Source: Pseudomonadota bacterium (GTDB lineage Bacteria; Pseudomonadota; Alphaproteobacteria; Acetobacterales; Acetobacteraceae). Taken from it: a stretch of 38,321 nt of DNA. Made by a program: the position numbers and the translations under genes. Shown here in pieces: positions 5,826 to 32,886 of this stretch (position 1 is its first letter; the number at the start of each line of letters is the position of its first letter). The notes under the pieces are model-generated. The model saw only the letters and a list, made by a program, of their open reading frames with translations. It had not been told where the DNA came from and made no database searches. Where the stretch lies: assembly GCA_021828605.1 (NCBI GenBank), contig JAJZEG010000003.1, positions 1 through 38,321 on the forward strand, in the 5' to 3' direction.

Positions 5826-7335
5826 AATGCGCCGCCTCTGGAATCAGTTGGTCCAACACCCGCGCCGTGGATAACACGCCCGGCACACCGGCACCTGGAT
5901 GGGTGCCAGCTCCCACCAGAAACAGGTTCTTTAATTCTTCGCTCCGATTATGCGGTCGAAACCAGGCACTTTGCGTCAAAACCGGCTCCAACCCAAACCC
6001 CGCCCCTAACACCGAGCGATACCGGCTCGCGAAATCGGCTGGTGTCATCTGCATCGATGTTACCACATGATCACCCAACCCCGGCAGCATCGTCGCCTCC
6101 AACCGCGCCGCAATCGTCGCCCGATAGGCATCCGCGCGCGCGTCCCAATCAATCGCCGAACCTAAATGCGGCACCGGGGCCAGCGCATAAAACGCATCAC
6201 ATCCAGCCGGTGCTAACGCCGGATCGGTCGCGGTGGGCCGATGCAAATACAGGCTCATATCATCGGCCAGTATTTTTCGCTCGAAAATATCTTCCAGCAG
6301 ACCCCGATAGCGCGGGCCCATAATAATCGCATGATGTGGCACATCCGCATAATGTTTGTCGGTGCCAAAATACCAAACGAACAACCCCATCGAATAGCGC
6401 GCGCGCTGCAATTTTCGATCGCTCCAGCGTTTGCGCGGATGTTCGGCGAGCAGGGTCTGGTAAGTATAGGCCGCGTCGGCGTCGGAAATCACTAAATCGG
6501 CAGCGATTACCCGGCCATCAACCAACTCCACCCCGCACGCCGCCTGATCGCGCACGCAAATTCGCCGCACCTCCGCATTCAGTAAAATCTGGTTGCCCTG
6601 GCCCTTAATCAGATCGACCAAACCCGCAATAATCGCGCCGGTGCCACCCATGGCAAAATGCACCCCATGCCGCCGCTCCAAATGCAGGATCAGCGCATAA
6701 ATCGCACTGACTTTGAACGGATTGCCACCCACTAACAACGGATGGAAACTGAGCGCCTGGCGCACCCGTTCATCGCGCACATAGCGCGATACCAGCCCAT
6801 ACACGCTGCGATGGCCGGAGAGACGCAGCAAATCGGGTAAAATTCGCGCCATATCGCTGATTGAGCCGAACGGCACATGGCCTAATTTTTCAAAGCCAAT
6901 GCGGTATATTTCCTCGCTCAGCCCGATAAATCGATGATAGCCGCTCACGTCGCCCGGCGCGATACGCCCAATTTCCCGCGCCATCGCGGTTGGGTCTGCC
7001 GAACAATCCAAATGCGTGCCATCATCGAACCGGATCCGATAAAACGGGTCCATTTCGCGCAACGTCACATGATCGGCAAACCGCTTACCCGCCATCTGCC
7101 ATAATTCTTCTAACAAAAACGGTGCGGTGATAATGGTTGGTCCCGCATCGAAGGTGAAGCCGTCCTGCCGGAACACGCTGGCCCGTCCCCCCGGCTGGTC
7201 AAGTTTTTCTAACAACGTCACCCGATAGCCGCGCGCCCCTAGGCGGATCGCCGCCGCTAGTCCGCCAAACCCCGCACCAATAATCAGCGCGTGGGGCCGA
7301 TCATCGGTATCACGCACCGGGCTAATCGCGTTCAT
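5812..7335 (-). CDS. crtI: phytoene desaturase
   Basis: CrtI is the FAD-dependent desaturase that converts phytoene to neurosporene or lycopene at the membrane. The start ATG at 7335 gives a short lead and then the dinucleotide motif ALIIGAGFGGLAAAIRL. This is followed by GGRASVFRQDGFTFDAGP and TIITAPFLLEELW, all typical of bacterial CrtI. The C-terminal bacterial-type desaturase signature is also complete (FLVGAGTHPGAGVPGVLSTA). The length of 507 residues is normal. The gene overlaps bchO by 14 bases upstream and crtB by 14 bases downstream. Whether it performs three or four desaturations cannot be judged from sequence. crtC, crtD and crtF, needed for spirilloxanthin-type carotenoids, are not in this window. 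Confidence 0.96.
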   Translation of the reverse strand: MNAISPVRDTDDRPHALIIGAGFGGLAAAIRLGARGYRVTLLEKLDQPGGRASVFRQDGFTFDAGPTIITAPFLLEELWQMAGKRFADHVTLREMDPFYRIRFDDGTHLDCSADPTAMAREIGRIAPGDVSGYHRFIGLSEEIYRIGFEKLGHVPFGSISDMARILPDLLRLSGHRSVYGLVSRYVRDERVRQALSFHPLLVGGNPFKVSAIYALILHLERRHGVHFAMGGTGAIIAGLVDLIKGQGNQILLNAEVRRICVRDQAACGVELVDGRVIAADLVISDADAAYTYQTLLAEHPRKRWSDRKLQRARYSMGLFVWYFGTDKHYADVPHHAIIMGPRYRGLLEDIFERKILADDMSLYLHRPTATDPALAPAGCDAFYALAPVPHLGSAIDWDARADAYRATIAARLEATMLPGLGDHVVTSMQMTPADFASRYRSVLGAGFGLEPVLTQSAWFRPHNRSEELKNLFLVGAGTHPGAGVPGVLSTARVLDQLIPEAAHYVRH

Positions 7336-8266
7336 TGGTTGCCGCCGGTAAGACGCCCAAATTTTCGGCAAATTTGATGATCAGATCGGCAATCAACGCC
7401 GGTTGTTCCTCATGCGCCAAATGACCCAAGCGGGGCAGGCGCACATGCTGCGCCGTCGCGACCCTGCGCGCTAACATCGCCGCATCCGAAGGCGGGATCG
7501 AGCGATCATCCGAGCCGGTGATGAGCAATAATCTCGCCGCCAGTTTCGGCAAATCCGCCTCTACCCGATTAAGGTCCCAATTCGCCATCATTGATAAAGC
7601 GGCGCCCGCATGGCCGCTCCGCCGCGCCAATCGCCCATATAAATCCGCACCGCGCGGGTCAATCCGCGAGCCGGTGCTCTCTAACAGCCGCGCCACCACT
7701 GCCGGATCAGCCGCCCGCCATGCGAAAATTCGCGGCACCAGCGGATTGAGCGACATCAGCTTGGCGAGCGGTGAAAAAATCCGTCCGGCCAACCCGTCAA
7801 ATCGTCGCAACGCGCCGTTCAACGACACAATCCCGCGCGGCGCAATCATCCGCTCCAACGCCATTTCCACGGCAATCGCCGCTCCGGCGGAATGGCCGAC
7901 CACCAGCATCGGCGCGGGACAATCCAGAATGATCAGTAACTGACGCAGCGCCGCTGCCATGCCCGGCAGCGACATGCGCGACCAGGGCAGGGGGCTGGTA
8001 AAGCCATGACCCGGTAAATCCGGTGCGATCACGGTGACATGCGCGGCAAGCATCGGCGCGAGATCCCGCCAGGAATGGGTGGCGGCGCCGGTCCCGTGCA
8101 GCAGCAAAATCGGCGGCCCGCTGCCCATGATTTGCACATGAAACCGGATCCCGCCCGCCTCGACAAACCGGCTTGCGGCACGGTTCGGCCAATCAGCGCC
8201 GTCGCGCGTCCAATCAGGACAAGCGGGATCTGCGGACATTGATCGGGTCTGGGTCGCTGCACTCAT
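7322..8266 (-). CDS. bchO: BchO, alpha/beta hydrolase of the Mg-chelatase cluster
   Basis: BchO is an alpha/beta-hydrolase encoded beside bchI/bchD in most purple-bacterial clusters. Its exact role is not settled; it is usually annotated as a putative magnesium chelatase accessory protein. The product has the oxyanion-hole motif LLLHGTGAATHSW, the nucleophile elbow VVGHSAGAAIAVE, and a C-terminal catalytic-type His in RLGHLAHEEQP. The start ATG at 8266 overlaps the bchD stop as ATGA; a second in-frame ATG lies at 8239. The length, 314 residues, is close to the orf320 I recall next to bchD in Acidiphilium rubrum. The downstream crtI start lies inside this gene. Confidence 0.92.
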   Translation of the reverse strand: MSAATQTRSMSADPACPDWTRDGADWPNRAASRFVEAGGIRFHVQIMGSGPPILLLHGTGAATHSWRDLAPMLAAHVTVIAPDLPGHGFTSPLPWSRMSLPGMAAALRQLLIILDCPAPMLVVGHSAGAAIAVEMALERMIAPRGIVSLNGALRRFDGLAGRIFSPLAKLMSLNPLVPRIFAWRAADPAVVARLLESTGSRIDPRGADLYGRLARRSGHAGAALSMMANWDLNRVEADLPKLAARLLLITGSDDRSIPPSDAAMLARRVATAQHVRLPRLGHLAHEEQPALIADLIIKFAENLGVLPAATNERD

Positions 8267-9954
8267 GACCCACCCTGATGGTTGCGTATAATTTGTTGCA
8301 ACGCCCCGGCATTGGCGAATGGCAGCGGGAAATGTCGCGCTTTCATGCGGTCGGCCAGTTCGCGCGCGATGGGTGACGGGCGCGGTGCGGTATCGATCAC
8401 TAACGCGCTCAACCGATCCACGGCGCAGCCGGTGGCTGCTTCTAACGCGTCATCCATCGCCTGCTTACGCCCCTGCTGGCCATCGCGCCCGATATTGGCG
8501 CCGCCATCGGTGAGCAGCACAATCAACGGCTTTTTGCCGCGCCGACGCTCAGAGAGTGCCAGTTGCCGCGCCGCATCAATGCCCGCAGCCAACGGCGTCG
8601 CGCCACCGCCGGGTAGGCCCGCCAGACTGCGCCGCGCCCGCGCGAGCGCACTGGTGGGGGGGAGCAGAATCTCAGCGCCACGATTGCGAAATGCGATCAA
8701 CGCCACCTGATCGCGGCGGACATAGCATTCCGCTAACAATAATTGGATCGCGCCCTTCGCCTCGGCAAGTCGGTGGAGTGCCGATGATCCCGACGCATCG
8801 ACGCTGACAATCGCCACTGAACGCGTCGGCTCTTTGAATTTTTTCAGCCGAAAATCACTCGCTTTGATCATTAATCCGGCGCGCGCTGTGGGGTTGTCGC
8901 GCCTGCGCAGCCTTTGCCATGGTGCGGCAGCTCGCAGCGTATCGAGCAAAGCCAGCCGTGCGCCATGACCTGGTTTTCCCACGCGCGCACCAACCGGGCG
9001 TCCGCGCGTGCCAGGCCGTGGCGCCGGCGCTGCCCCGCCGCCCGCCGCCACGCCCGACCGATCAAGGGCGGCGAGCCGCGCTAACAAATCAGCGGGGATG
9101 GATGCAATCGCCGCCGCTAAAATCTGCTCCGCCAGCTTCTGATCCGGCTCAGGCCGATGCTCACGCGGCGGGCTTTCCTGATTATCGGCCTGATCGGGTT
9201 TTTGGGGCTGCGCGTGCTCCGGCTGGGGCGGCGGTGCCATCTCAGCGTCAGGCATCCGCGTCGCGCGCGGGGCTAACACCAGCTGCGCGGCGCGTTGCGC
9301 ATCAGCCTTGGTAACCGCCGCGTGCCCGGCGAGGGCTGCAATCACCCGCGCCGCACGCACCGCCAATATCGGCGCCCGGATCGAGGCAATGCCCAAAGCG
9401 GCAGCAGTAATGGTCAGCTGATCCATCAGCCGCTCGGAGCATACCACGCCAGCCAACCGGGCCCGCGCTGCGGCCAATCGTTTCGCGCTAATAATCGGCC
9501 CCGGCGAAAAACCATCCTGGTCAATCCAGAACGCCAAACGATCCGCCAGTCTAGGCGCTAACATTGCCGCCTCGTCCACGCCTTCATCGAAGGCAAGGAT
9601 GGCGAAGCGTGATGGTCCTTGATCAAACTGGGTCGTGATTTTCGCAACCCGATCCGCAGGCATGGTCTCCGCCATCGGCAGGAGAACAATTCCGCCATCG
9701 GCCTCGGCTAAAATGCCGGGGCTTTGCACCCGTCGCCCGGTTTGCAGGCTCGTCGCCAAATCAAGCGCTCCGTGCAGCCGATCATCGGTGATCGAGACCG
9801 GCAATCGCCGCCACGCCGTCCCGGCGGGCAGCATCGCGCGTAACTGATCGACAAAGTCATCGCGCTGGGAGCCCGCGGCACCGCGCAGCACCGCTCCGCC
9901 CAGCCCGCGCAGATCAATCGCTAACACGGTCAGCGCGGAGACCGGCTTCATCAT
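8263..9954 (-). CDS. bchD: magnesium chelatase subunit D
   Basis: BchD pairs with BchI to form the ATP-driven AAA+ motor that powers metal insertion by BchH. The N-terminal third resembles an AAA+ domain but lacks a working Walker A, as expected for BchD. A Pro/Gln/Glu-rich linker (around residues 235-275) follows. The C-terminal von Willebrand A domain has a complete MIDAS: VSVDASGSS, the Thr of GGGATPLAAGID, and LLTDGGANIGRDG. Two adjacent ATG codons at 9954 and 9951 are possible starts; the frame is open further up to 10083 but that part lies inside bchI. From 9954 the length is 563 residues, the usual size. The gap to bchI is 7 bases and the stop is coupled to bchO. Confidence 0.94.
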   Translation of the reverse strand: MMKPVSALTVLAIDLRGLGGAVLRGAAGSQRDDFVDQLRAMLPAGTAWRRLPVSITDDRLHGALDLATSLQTGRRVQSPGILAEADGGIVLLPMAETMPADRVAKITTQFDQGPSRFAILAFDEGVDEAAMLAPRLADRLAFWIDQDGFSPGPIISAKRLAAARARLAGVVCSERLMDQLTITAAALGIASIRAPILAVRAARVIAALAGHAAVTKADAQRAAQLVLAPRATRMPDAEMAPPPQPEHAQPQKPDQADNQESPPREHRPEPDQKLAEQILAAAIASIPADLLARLAALDRSGVAAGGGAAPAPRPGTRGRPVGARVGKPGHGARLALLDTLRAAAPWQRLRRRDNPTARAGLMIKASDFRLKKFKEPTRSVAIVSVDASGSSALHRLAEAKGAIQLLLAECYVRRDQVALIAFRNRGAEILLPPTSALARARRSLAGLPGGGATPLAAGIDAARQLALSERRRGKKPLIVLLTDGGANIGRDGQQGRKQAMDDALEAATGCAVDRLSALVIDTAPRPSPIARELADRMKARHFPLPFANAGALQQIIRNHQGGS

Positions 9955-10997: not shown

Positions 10998-11495
10998 TTA
11001 GTGACCTTTGCCAGCGGCGCCAAATGGCGGGTTGAGACGGACAATGGTATAATTCAAATAGCCAGCGAAACTAACCCACAGCAAATAGGGCACCAGCATC
11101 AACGCGCCGACGGTCGAAAATTGATCAATGGTTGCAATCAAGGCGGCAATCGTCAGCCAGAGCGGGGCAATATCAATCAAGGCCCAGTCAGGGCGGCGCT
11201 TGGTAAAAAACAAATAGCTCCAAGCGATATTAAAGCCGCCATTGAGGGCAAGCAGTCCAAGCATTAAGCTTGAGGCTGCCCGGTTCGGCGCGGTTTCCCA
11301 ACCAATCACGCCGGCGGTCGCCACCAGGGCAAAAATCAACGTCCATACCGGTGCGAACAGCCAATTTGGCGGCTGCCAACTCGGCTTGTTTAACGCGCGA
11401 TACCAGGGGCCAATCGTGGTCACCGCCCCGCCAATCCCAGCAACGATGGTGGCTGCCGCAGCCGCAACCACAATCAGGCCCCAATGACCGCCCAT
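10998..11495 (-). CDS. tspO: TspO/MBR family tryptophan-rich sensory protein
   Basis: TspO is a five-helix membrane protein that binds porphyrins and in Rhodobacter sphaeroides acts as an oxygen-linked negative regulator of photosynthesis gene expression. The product has the family core GPWYRALNKPSWQPPNWLF, the WTLIFALVATAG helix, the Asn-rich NGGFNIAWSYLFF segment and the closing AGYLNYTIVRLN. The ATG at 11495 is the most likely start. A GTG at 11504 in the same frame gives exactly 168 codons, the size of the orf168 I remember between bchP and bchI in Acidiphilium rubrum. The gene is 40 bases after bchP and one base before bchI, so it is embedded in the bacteriochlorophyll operon. Confidence 0.92.
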   Translation of the reverse strand: MGGHWGLIVVAAAAATIVAGIGGAVTTIGPWYRALNKPSWQPPNWLFAPVWTLIFALVATAGVIGWETAPNRAASSLMLGLLALNGGFNIAWSYLFFTKRRPDWALIDIAPLWLTIAALIATIDQFSTVGALMLVPYLLWVSFAGYLNYTIVRLNPPFGAAGKGH

Positions 11496-11535
11496 GATAC
11501 TCACGCGATCACCCGCTTTGACCTATGCGCGTGCA

Positions 11536-28724: not shown

Positions 28725-29801
28725 ATGAACGCCGTCCGTCAGATCAACGCTGAAACCAATGCCCCGAACGCGCAAACCGCCTCGGCGCAAGTCAGCACCA
28801 TGCTCAGCCCGCGCTTTTACACCACCGATTTCGACGCCCTCGACCAAATCGATGTCGCCCCAATCCGCACCCAATGGGACGCGCTGATGGCAGAGTTCAA
28901 AGCCGATCCGAACAAGGGCCACTTCATCCGCACCGACGAGTTTGCCGTCGATATTTCCGGCATGCCCGAGGCCTTGCGCCGGGAGTTTCTCGATTTCCTG
29001 GTCAGCTCCGTCACCGCCGAATTCTCCGGCTGCGTGCTCTATGCCGAAATCAAAAAGCGCGTGAAAAACCCGGATTTGCAAGCCTTGTTTGGTTATATGA
29101 GCCGCGATGAAGCGCGCCATGCCGGGTTCATCAACGAGGCCCTCCACGACCTCAACATGAAGGTTGATCTGGGCTTTCTCACCCGCGCTAAAAAATACCA
29201 TTTCTTCAAGCCGAAATTCATTTTCTACGCGACCTACCTGTCTGAAAAAATCGGCTACGCCCGCTATATCTCAATTTACCGTCAGCTCGAACGCCATCCC
29301 GAACTGCGCATCCATCCCATTTTCAAATGGTTCCGCGAATGGTGCAACGATGAGTTTCGTCACGGCGAAGCCTTCGCTCTGTTGATGCGCGCAAATCCGT
29401 GGATGCTCACCGGCTTCAACCGTCTGTGGGTGCGGTTTTTCCAACTCGCGGTGTTCGCGACCATGTATGTGCGTGATCACGCGCGCCCGCATTTCCATGC
29501 CGCCCTTGGCCTTGAGCCGACATCGTATGACATGCAGGTATTTCGCATCACCACCGCGATTTGCGAGCAAGTATTCCCGGTTACCCTCGATATCGAAAAT
29601 CCAAAGTTCCTTGCTGGTCTCGAGCGGTTACGCAAAATCGATGTCGCTAATCTAGCGCTGCGCAACCAGCCCGGCCTCGGCGCCAAACTCAAACGCACCA
29701 AACATGTCATCCAAGCCGCAATCACGTTCGCGGGCCTCTATGTGATGCGCGCGAAATCAAAAACGCTACCCGCCGAAATTCGCCTCCAGCCGACCTGGTA
29801 A
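28725..29801 (+). CDS. acsF: aerobic Mg-protoporphyrin IX monomethyl ester cyclase
   Basis: AcsF is the oxygen-dependent diiron enzyme that closes the isocyclic ring E of protochlorophyllide. The 358-residue product shows the carboxylate/histidine diiron motifs: Glu in [34 protein letters not shown], and the late [15 protein letters not shown]. The conserved [19 protein letters not shown] segment is present too. Length and motifs are complete. No BchE, the oxygen-independent cyclase, is in the window, so pigment synthesis in this organism probably depends on oxygen, as in aerobic anoxygenic phototrophs. It is followed after 23 bases by the PuhE-GTPase fusion, with AGAGGAAG before that start. 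Confidence 0.96.
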
Positions 29802-29824: not shown

Positions 29825-31648
29825 ATGAGCAGCTATCTGATTCCCGGCCTGTTTGCCTTGTTCATCTGGTGGTTCAGCACCGGCGCCATTATTTTTCTCG
29901 ATGGCCTACCGCGCAACAGTTTCAAATGGAGCATGCTCGGCGCCAGCGCGGTCTATGCGATTTGCGTCATCGGCCTGATCCGGGTTAGCCACCAAACCAC
30001 GATCGGCGCCGCCTACTGGGCCTTCGGCTTTGGTCTATTCGCCTGGGGTTGGCAGGAAATCAGCTTTTACATGGGCTATGTCACCGGCCCGCGCAAAGCC
30101 GCCTGCCCGGAAAATTGCCGAGGCTGGAAGCATTTCGGTCACGCCATTCAAACCAGCCTTTGGCATGAACTCGCAATCATCGCCTCCGCCGTCCTGATCA
30201 TCGCCGCCACCTGGGGCCAACCCAACCAAATCGGGGTCTGGACGTTCATGGTGCTGTGGTGGATGCATCAAAGTGCCAAGCTCAATGTATTTCTCGGTGT
30301 GCGTAACCTCAATGAAGAGTTCCTTCCAGAACATCTCAACTTTCTAAAAAGCTTCCTCCGCCGCGAGCCGATGAACCTGCTATTCCCGATCTCGATCACC
30401 GTCTCCACCGTGATCGGCACCATGATGTTCGAGCACGCTGCTAACGCGACCAGCGCTTTCGCCCGCGCGGGTGACACCTTCATCGGCGTGATGATGGCGC
30501 TGGCAATTCTCGAACATTGGTTTCTGGTCGTGCCACTTCCCGCCGCTAAACTTTGGAGCTGGGGCCTGAAATCACGCAAACCCGCCCGCGCCTTCGATGT
30601 TGAAATCATCGCGGGTTTTCTGGGTGCTGGCAAAACCACCTTCATGCGCCGCAGGCTCGATATGTTGAGCGCCGTGCCCGCCGAGAAGCGCGAAAAAACC
30701 GTGGTTCTGGTCAATGATTTCAGCTCCGTCGGCATTGATGGCTCGCTGCTGCGCGGCCAAGGTGCCGATGTGGTGGAGCTGCCCAATGGCTGTATTTGCT
30801 GCACCCTGAAAAATGATCTGGCGAGCCAGCTGCAAGAGGTTGTCGGATCCTACGCCCCTGATCGTGTGTTAATCGAACCCTCCGGCGTCGCCGATCTCGC
30901 CTCCCTGATCGGCGTGTTAGAGCGTCCGCAAATCGCTCCATTCAAACGCAGCCTGTCGGTGATCACCATGATCGATGCTGGCGCGTTTCTGGGTGACTAC
31001 GCCGAAATGCAGGCCCACTTCACCGCCCAGGCCCGTCTCGCCGGCACCATTATTATCAATAAAACCGACTTGGTCAGCGCCGCCGAGCGCCGCACCGTGG
31101 AGACGACCCTCACCCGGCTCAATCCCGACGCGCGCATTCTCACCGCCCGCTACGGTGCCGTCCCTGCCGATATTTTTGCGGGCACCAAGACCCCGTTGAC
31201 CGAAATCGACGCGCCCGCCTCAACGCACGACCACCCGCCGCATGATCATGCGGCACACGCGCATCACGATCACCATGATTGCGACCATGCCACCTGCAAC
31301 CATCCAGAACACGACCACGACCACAGCCATGACCACGCGCATCAAGACGCGCTCGGCTTCGCCTCCTGGTCGAGCACGCTGGACTCGGTCTGCGATATCG
31401 ATGCTCTCCGCCGCGTGCTTGATGACGCAGCCGATGGGCAATTTGGCATCATCGCGCGGCTGAAAGGCCTGGCGCGCGCCGGGCGCGGTTGGGTCCAGTT
31501 TGACGTCGCCGGGCACCGCGCCAGCGTCACCGCCTTTGCCGCCCCCGCCGATGAGCAGCCGCGCGTCATCGCCATCGGTCGCGATCTCAACGAAGCGGCG
31601 CTGGCAACAGCGTTCGCCGGATGCGCCTTGCGTCTCGCCGCCGAATAA
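29825..31648 (+). CDS. puhE: PuhE fused to a COG0523 (CobW/G3E) metal-chaperone GTPase
   Basis: One 607-residue frame joins two families with no stop or shift between them. Residues 1-250 are PuhE (putative photosynthetic complex assembly protein 2), with several membrane helices and [38 protein letters not shown] and [18 protein letters not shown]. Residues 257-607 are a COG0523 GTPase: Walker [10 protein letters not shown] (264-272), [12 protein letters not shown], the metal motif GCICC (Cys323, Cys325, Cys326), EPSGVAD, and NKTD (412-415) for guanine. A loop at 468-507 holds 17 His and two Cys, and a CobW C-terminal domain closes the protein. COG0523 proteins deliver or buffer Zn, Co or other metals using GTP. 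Being anchored by PuhE, the GTPase should sit on the cytoplasmic face near the assembling core. Most PuhE proteins are about 250-280 residues. Confidence 0.9.
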
Positions 31649-31674: not shown

Positions 31675-32886
31675 ATGAATTACGAACAATTTTTCGCAAC
31701 CCAGCTCGATCAACTCCGCCGCGAGGGGCGTTATCGGGTCTTCGCGGATATCGAACGCCATGCGGGTAATTTCCCGCACGCAACCCAATATGGCGAGAGC
31801 GGCGAACGCGAAGTTACCGTCTGGTGCTCGAATGATTATCTGGGCATGGGCCAGCATCCAACCGTGCTCAGCGCCATGCATAGCGCGCTGGATCGCTGCG
31901 GGGCAGGGGCGGGGGGCACGCGCAATATCGCGGGCACCAATCATTTTCACACCGTGTTAGAGCGTGAACTGGCCGACCTCCATAATAAAGATTCCGCTCT
32001 GCTGTTTAATTCCGGCTATATGTCCAACTGGGCGTCGCTCTGCACCCTGGCTGCGAAGCTGCCGCAATGCGTGGTGGTATCAGACGCGCTCAATCACGCC
32101 TCGATGATCGAAGGCATTCGTCACAGCCGCGCTGAATGCGTGGTGTTCGAGCATAACGACCCCGCCGATCTTGCACGCAAACTTGCCGCCATCGATCCCG
32201 CCCGCCCGAAACTCGTCGCCTTTGAAAGCGTCTATTCGATGGATGGTGACGTGGCCCCGATCAAAGCGATTTGCGATGTGGCCGATCAATATGGCGCGAT
32301 GACCTATCTCGATGAGGTCCATGCCGTCGGCCTGTACGGCCCGCGCGGCGGCGGTATTTCCGAGCGTGACGGCTTGGCGCACCGGATTAGCGTGATTGAG
32401 GGCACCCTCGCCAAAGGCTTCGGTGTGATCGGGGGCTACATTACCGGCTCGCACGCTTTGTGCGATTTCATCCGCTCCTACGCATCAGGGTTCATTTTCA
32501 CCACAGCCTTGCCGCCCACCGTCGCCGCGGGTGCAATCGCCAGTATTCGCCATCTCAAATCGAGTGACGCGGAACGCATCCGCATGCATGAGCGCGTCGC
32601 CCGCTTGCGCGCGAAACTCGATCAAGCGAACGTCCCGCACCTCGCCAATCCCAGCCATATCGTGCCGGTCATGGTCTGGGATGCCAGCCTGTGCAAAGAT
32701 ATCAGTGACACGTTGTTAGAACGCTTCGGGATTTATGTGCAGCCAATCAACTACCCGACGGTACCGCGCGGTACCGAACGGCTGCGCCTCACCCCGTCAC
32801 CCTTGCATAGCGACGCAGACATGGATCACCTCGTCGAGTCCCTTGCAACCATCTGGCGCGAACTCTCGATCCGCCGCGCCGCATAA
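31675..32886 (+). CDS. hemA: 5-aminolevulinate synthase
   Basis: HemA condenses glycine and succinyl-CoA to 5-aminolevulinate (the C4 pathway), feeding all tetrapyrroles. The 403-residue product has [20 protein letters not shown] at the start, then [30 protein letters not shown] is the glycine-rich substrate region. [17 protein letters not shown] holds the PLP-ring Asp, [14 protein letters not shown] the PLP lysine, and [13 protein letters not shown] follows. The start is ATG at 31675 with GGAGAG about eight bases upstream; the frame is open back to 31621 but that overlaps the fusion gene. As the last gene of the rightward run it couples precursor supply to pigment synthesis. A second ALA synthase may exist elsewhere in the genome. 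Confidence 0.96.

Follow-up and report, generated by a model that had tools for sequence, protein, structure and literature searches.

The first 38,321 nucleotides of contig JAJZEG010000003.1 (assembly GCA_021828605.1, Acetobacteraceae), called the window throughout, carry a gene in which PuhE is joined in frame to a complete GTPase of the COG0523 family. This fusion is real and is a widespread clade trait. In the fused proteins the PuhE half carries a conserved set of cysteine and histidine residues, a signature which is a new observation of this analysis. A possible interpretation, tentatively preferred here, is that the fusion protein is a regulator gated by GTP and probably handling Zn(II), which acts on PuhE at the cytoplasmic face of the membrane and tunes bacteriochlorophyll production.

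The fusion gene occupies positions 29825-31648 (+ strand) and translates into 607 codons plus a stop codon, with zero internal stops. Residues 1-253 (29825-30583, +) form the PuhE/DUF3623 domain with seven predicted transmembrane helices; they match PF12291 with 369.3 bits (cut-off 27, E value 1.1e-110) and TIGR03055 with 326.5 bits (cut-off 164.05), the latter match spanning the whole length. The junction, residues 254-258 (30584-30598, +), lies where the initial annotation had placed it and is followed by the G3E/COG0523 GTPase domain (residues 259-439; 30599-31141, +; PF02492, 141.4 bits, cut-off 20.7). Then come a His-rich loop with 17 His in 45 residues (residues 462-506; 31208-31342, +) and the CobW_C domain (residues 512-600; 31358-31624, +; PF07683, 40.7 bits, cut-off 22). 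The GTPase contains the Walker A P-loop GFLGAGKTT (residues 264-272; 30614-30640, +), GCICC, which is the CxCC metal motif of COG0523 (residues 322-326; 30788-30802, +), IEPSG (residues 350-354) and the guanine-specificity motif NKTD (residues 412-415; 31058-31069, +). All features by which a G3E GTPase is assigned to COG0523 (P-loop, CxCC, NKxD and CobW_C) are thus found in the fusion protein. It stays below the cut-offs of the CobW equivalog TIGR02475 (117.3 vs 332.1 bits), the ZigA equivalog NF038288 (98.4 vs 600 bits) and the PRK11537 GTPase NF008578 (75.8 vs 361 bits), a label that presumably denotes the YjiA type. The initial annotation had described a single 607-codon frame and a GTPase with complete core motifs; the open frame, the two domains above their cut-offs and the located motifs bear this out. 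Of its term metal chaperone, the COG0523 membership stands and the chaperone role is carried over from the family.

Matches to the whole protein are numerous. All of the 120 listed (the best 120 of 7989 above threshold, the window protein among them) have the same three Pfam domains, so PuhE proteins with a CobW domain, which the initial annotation had suggested looking for, do occur elsewhere. Among the matches listed, one identical protein was found on three contigs. The same in-frame join is present in independent assemblies, e.g. those of Acidiphilium sp. 37-60-79 (locus L003) and A. rubrum ATCC 35905 (L002). This recurrence, together with the identical protein on three contigs, makes a sequencing frameshift very unlikely. 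Since the join is shared by many independent assemblies and isolates, and since purifying selection is common to both halves, an artefact of assembly or reading frame that merely connects two genes can be given practically no credence.

At 44 of 64 genome loci gathered with the PuhE half, GTPase sequence follows in the same frame; one of the 44, L027, is truncated at a contig end, as are L039 and L045 among the other 20. Altogether 68 of 139 PuhE-type rows are fused, counted over sets whose loci overlap (e.g. L002 and L073, L065 and L100, L101 and L143). Of 385 sampled genomes of the class, 27 had PuhE above the cut-off, and in 3 of these it was fused, one being A. rubrum itself. From 80 Acetobacteraceae genomes with PuhE the highest-scoring loci were taken (28 of them new), a selection that gives no basis for a fused fraction of the family. 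The carriers comprise Acidiphilium, Acidocella, Lichenicoccus and other Acetobacteraceae, Jiella, Aurantimonas and Fulvimarina (with Aurantimonadaceae among the families), Lichenibacterium and Pararhizobium mangrovi; bins labelled Ferrovum, Thiodictyon and Acidobacteria also carry the fusion, and these labels may be wrong. The nearest named relatives of the window lineage are Acidiphilium. The fusion is not confined to this genome but is a trait of a widespread clade. In Jiella pelagia (L026), another of the 44, the fusion frame breaks within the GTPase, roughly past window residue 318, either through a sequencing error or because the gene is a pseudogene.

Purifying selection acts on both the PuhE and the GTPase halves. 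In five sequence pairs compared by the Nei-Gojobori method, the ratio of nonsynonymous to synonymous substitution rates (dN/dS) ranged from 0.042 to 0.074 in PuhE and from 0.034 to 0.106 in the G domain; CobW_C gave 0.049-0.281 and the His-rich linker 0.118-0.331. In the four pairs containing the window, L003 or L135 the core-domain dS is 0.39-1.33; it exceeds 0.85 in both window pairs and in L003/L135, whose values are therefore rough. Only the closest pair, L001/L002, is comfortably unsaturated with a dS of about 0.27, and gave 0.047 for PuhE and 0.034 for the G domain.

The metal-related motifs are widely conserved. We compared 187 fused frames (120 database proteins, the best 120 of 7989, plus 67 locus frames, duplicates included). 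GCICC was present in 183 of them and absent in L026, where the frame is broken, L037, L038 and L133. At least 8 His per 45 residues were counted in 176 frames; L030, L031, L032, L037, L038, L080 and L133 are among the 11 His-poor ones. Other motifs counted past residue 200 are missing in a few further rows; some of these (L050, L060, L070) are cut at their start, and L080 and L038 have a P-loop with variant letters.

In the PuhE half, C94, C98, H103, H106 and H148 occur together in all 120 fused database proteins listed (best 120 of 7989) and in all 48 fused locus rows, the window protein being in both sets. The first four form a candidate metal site, C94-x3-C98-x4-H103-x2-H106, in a cytoplasmic loop and the start of helix 4 (30104-30142, +), found in all fused proteins compared; the codon of H148 (30266-30268, +) lies in helix 5. 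Residue 148 is Arg in all 58 unfused database proteins, a set drawn through a search with the Fulvimarina paralogue and thus an uneven sample, and in 10 of 10 Fulvimarina paralogues; among 59 unfused loci from outside the clade it is Arg in 58 and Asn in one. The fused proteins are likewise invariant at Y82, W146 and M224, yet each of these is found in some unfused ones. Across PuhE as a whole (111 of 114 rows, with three contig-edge rows left out, after rows with fewer than 190 aligned residues and identical domains had been dropped) several polar residues are nearly invariant: E78 (110/111), H114, E115, K152 and E230 (each 111/111), and also N154 and H231.

Structure models place these residues relative to the membrane. 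The PuhE domain was modelled with seven long helices at a mean predicted local distance difference test score (pLDDT) of 92.3; a structure comparison gave no clear solved relative. The model of the entire fusion (mean pLDDT 85.9) has the same helices and an ordered GTPase, with pLDDT below 50 in the His-rich loop at 462-472 and 474-506. Its top Foldseek matches are YjiA entries, two of them Zn-bound, followed by HypB; MeaB is also among the matches. The loops on the C-terminal side of the helices contain 14 Lys/Arg residues and those on the other side 1. Hence the GTPase is predicted to be cytoplasmic, and the proposal of the initial annotation that it sits at the membrane gains substance as a cytoplasm-facing tether. 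By the helix positions in the model, E78, H103, H106, K152, N154, E230 and H231 are within about 6 residues of the cytoplasmic helix ends and H148 is about 9 away; H114 and E115 lie mid-helix. DUF3623 formerly belonged to the Pfam clan of the TmAT transmembrane acyltransferase superfamily, an affiliation that we rejected, as the model has seven helices and not the 10-helix TmAT fold. A passage of PMC12423673 likewise describes the membership of DUF3623 in this superfamily as unsupported.

Combining these observations, the COG0523 domain would hang from the C-terminus of PuhE into the cytoplasm and would bind Mg-GTP together with a transition metal at the CxCC motif, most likely Zn(II), with the His-rich loop assisting. 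The CxCC motif is known for its role in the metal site of COG0523 proteins. Upon GTP hydrolysis the metal could be passed to, or removed from, C94, C98, H103, H106 and H148 of the protein's own PuhE domain, if these form a single site. The change in metal occupancy would then switch the effect of PuhE on the production or delivery of bacteriochlorophyll. As described in parts of PMC7895991, the metal site of CobW is assembled on Mg-GTP and takes up Co(II), and its relatives YeiR and YjiA prefer Zn(II). A more far-reaching version is that PuhE itself is metal-controlled and that the fused clade possesses a self-contained, GTP-driven metal relay, in which the COG0523 domain charges a Cys2His2-plus-His site in its own seven-helix partner and the protein acts on bacteriochlorophyll synthesis as a brake or valve that responds to zinc or iron; this we consider improbable. 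If true, it would link the metal status of the cell to the building of the photosynthetic membrane.

Several observations weigh against a metal-handling regulator of PuhE. The complete C94-x3-C98-x4-H103-x2-H106 motif is also present in 7 of 59 unfused loci and 3 of 58 unfused proteins, and among the 59 unfused loci its members tend to co-occur (C98 with H106, Fisher p 1.9e-6, kinship ignored). Inside the clade, the unfused L023, L106, L107 and L137 retain H103, H106 and H148 without a GTPase (residue 94 of L023 is Arg), and a detached GTPase copy of more than 38% identity was not found in their genomes. The residues therefore arrived with the GTPase or before it. Signature and fusion alike look like single events, which reduces their coincidence to n = 1. 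Judged from sequence, the extra His residues could equally ligate a tetrapyrrole. Finally, L037 and L038/L133 have kept the fusion without CxCC and the His-rich loop.

The latter two lineages (the neighbour genes of L038 and L133 show these two to be a single lineage) would fit a nucleotide switch without metal delivery, in which the GTPase gates the conformation of PuhE and CxCC is structural. L037 and L038 retain an open frame, the P-loop as GAGKTS, and NKTD. G3E GTPases of the MeaB type gate their partner, and MeaB is found among the structural matches. However, GCICC is retained in 183 of the 187 frames, and in the PuhE tree the CxCC-less L037 and L038 are sister to the GTPase-less L137, so this lineage may be decaying, possibly step by step; a pure switch is, all in all, rather doubtful.

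The fusion gene lies within the photosynthesis cluster. Upstream, acsF (oxidative cyclase by its NCBIfam match; 28725-29801, +) ends 23 bases before it. The downstream gene (31675-32886, +) has an aminotransferase I/II fold match and resembles the hemA neighbours of the relatives; we take its product to be 5-aminolevulinate synthase, HemA. This position between acsF and hemA agrees with the placement among pigment genes in the initial annotation. AcsF is a di-iron enzyme, and the GTPase could serve an enzyme of pigment synthesis encoded nearby as metallochaperone, AcsF being the most plausible client, with PuhE merely anchoring it close to that client. Indeed, in 62 of 68 fused loci the first match upstream is acsF; for the other 6 there is no upstream call. 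Yet acsF upstream and hemA downstream also flank PuhE in 58 of 71 unfused rows, so the gene order is uninformative with respect to the GTPase. Moreover, the tree of BciE, AcsF and HemA does not track the fusion, and the ligand-type residues in PuhE would be left unexplained. A chaperone for AcsF is thus unlikely in our view, if worth keeping in mind. In six fused loci (L015, L017, L030, L032, L072, L120) the gene after the fusion is a bchI match and not hemA.

Another explanation is a metal guard: the His-rich loop and the GTPase could shield tetrapyrrole precursors at the membrane from Zn, Co and Cu, or supply zinc for the Zn-bacteriochlorophyll of Acidiphilium. The His-rich loop, with at least 8 His per 45 residues in 176 of 187 frames, speaks for such a role, as does the kinship of the window lineage with Acidiphilium, a genus that makes Zn-bacteriochlorophyll by a route of zinc incorporation described as uncertain in parts of PMC12654162. 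The 11 His-poor frames speak against it, and the wide spread of the fusion makes the version specific to Zn-bacteriochlorophyll unlikely. We regard the metal guard in general as having a small but real chance of being correct.

The history of the gene was followed with quick trees without bootstrap. A tree calculated from 22 fused and 35 free GTPases unites the former in a single group (support 99 in the Shimodaira-Hasegawa-like approximate likelihood ratio test), and thus, within this sample, the join was made once. In the PuhE tree, which includes the signature columns, a single group with support 89 consists of 48 fused rows, the 4 unfused rows L023, L106, L107 and L137, and 2 rows at contig edges; all 54 have H148. 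When the signature columns were removed (59 rows), the H148 set was interrupted by the unfused L139, which has Arg148. With the BciE, AcsF and HemA tree, a single clade of fused loci is rejected (36 vs 24 rows; approximately unbiased (AU) test, p 2.7e-62), as is one of the H148-type set (AU p 1.9e-58); the PuhE data alone do not discriminate (AU p 0.39 and 0.65). This conflict with the neighbour genes indicates that either the puhE-GTPase gene moved alone between clusters or the GTPase was lost several times.

Compared with known proteins, the PuhE half resembles ordinary PuhE (TIGR03055, PF12291/DUF3623; e.g. Rhodobacter capsulatus puhE) in its whole-length match, in its acsF-puhE-hemA position and in the near-invariant residues. 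It differs by the GTPase, by His in place of R148 and by fixed C98, H103 and H106. The GTPase half shares the P-loop, CxCC, NKxD, His-rich loop and CobW_C with COG0523/G3E GTPases (CobW, YjiA, YeiR, ZigA, ZNG1), YjiA giving the best Foldseek matches. Unlike these it is tethered to the membrane via PuhE, falls below the CobW, ZigA and PRK11537 cut-offs and belongs to a separate group in the GTPase tree.

In Fulvimarina pelagi (L065), DUF3623 and COG0523 are paired a second time, which is suggestive. Here a second, unfused DUF3623 protein (L065:6219-6983, -) is encoded in a ZinT-COG0523-DUF1826-DUF3623 run (the other genes at 6971-8119, 7861-8928 and 8932-9531, all -), where it abuts the DUF1826 gene, beside ZnuA and a Fur-family protein. 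Genes near the run presumably include those of ZnuB, ZnuC and Zur. As in the fusion, a DUF3623 protein is found near a COG0523 GTPase, here as separate genes; the GTPase, however, belongs to another tree group, and the DUF3623 protein is 27% identical and without the Cys/His signature. DUF1826 is named in the legend of a PMC2770081 figure about Zur-regulated COG0523 gene clusters. In F. endophytica the DUF3623 paralogue has another setting and the zinc-gene run is not kept; G739 (probably F. manganoxydans) has a paralogue fragment only, and a 252-residue copy is listed from an F. manganoxydans bin.

PuhE is widespread in purple phototrophs, and we are not aware of any biochemical activity assigned to it. 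Assembly factor, as the initial annotation called it, is a database label only; in an experimental study of 2005, a puhE mutant was reportedly slow in the transition to photosynthetic growth and altered in its pigment. The ligand-type residues in the PuhE half strengthen the suggestion that the GTPase partner is a clue to the role of PuhE. The long-kept link to a GTPase and the residues fixed in the clade turn the function of PuhE into questions about single residues and metal binding. To our knowledge, COG0523 proteins rarely have a membrane partner built in, and the fusion might allow a COG0523 client to be read off directly. A literature search, with most subscription papers outside its reach, found no published description of a PuhE-COG0523 fusion. 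Term searches in the portions of text covered gave no mention of photosynth, chlorophyll, fusion or Acidiphilium in the COG0523 survey PMC2770081, and none of fusion or CobW in the gene-cluster-arrangement paper PMC3176799. Thus, the initial statement that the fusion is undescribed holds for the literature searched and fails for the protein database, which already lists the three-domain architecture without comment, the JGI and NCBI names being of the PuhE type.

Elsewhere in the window, five sites match the one Zur palindrome used, with at most 2 mismatches allowed; by chance 1.31 are expected on average, and a count of 5 is reached in 4 of 100 shuffles. No match to this single palindrome at the same threshold lies directly upstream of the fusion gene. 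At 10998-11504 (-), in the photosynthesis cluster, the window encodes a protein of the TspO/MBR family (PF03073, 138.7 bits), beside a gene that we take to be bchI; TspO is tetrapyrrole-related. In A. rubrum, a free COG0523 gene (L067:5107-6522, -) adjoins a BchH/CobN-like gene of 1192 amino acids, presumably CobN. The free COG0523 gene looks like the true CobW of A. rubrum, and the fused GTPase would therefore be an extra member of the family.
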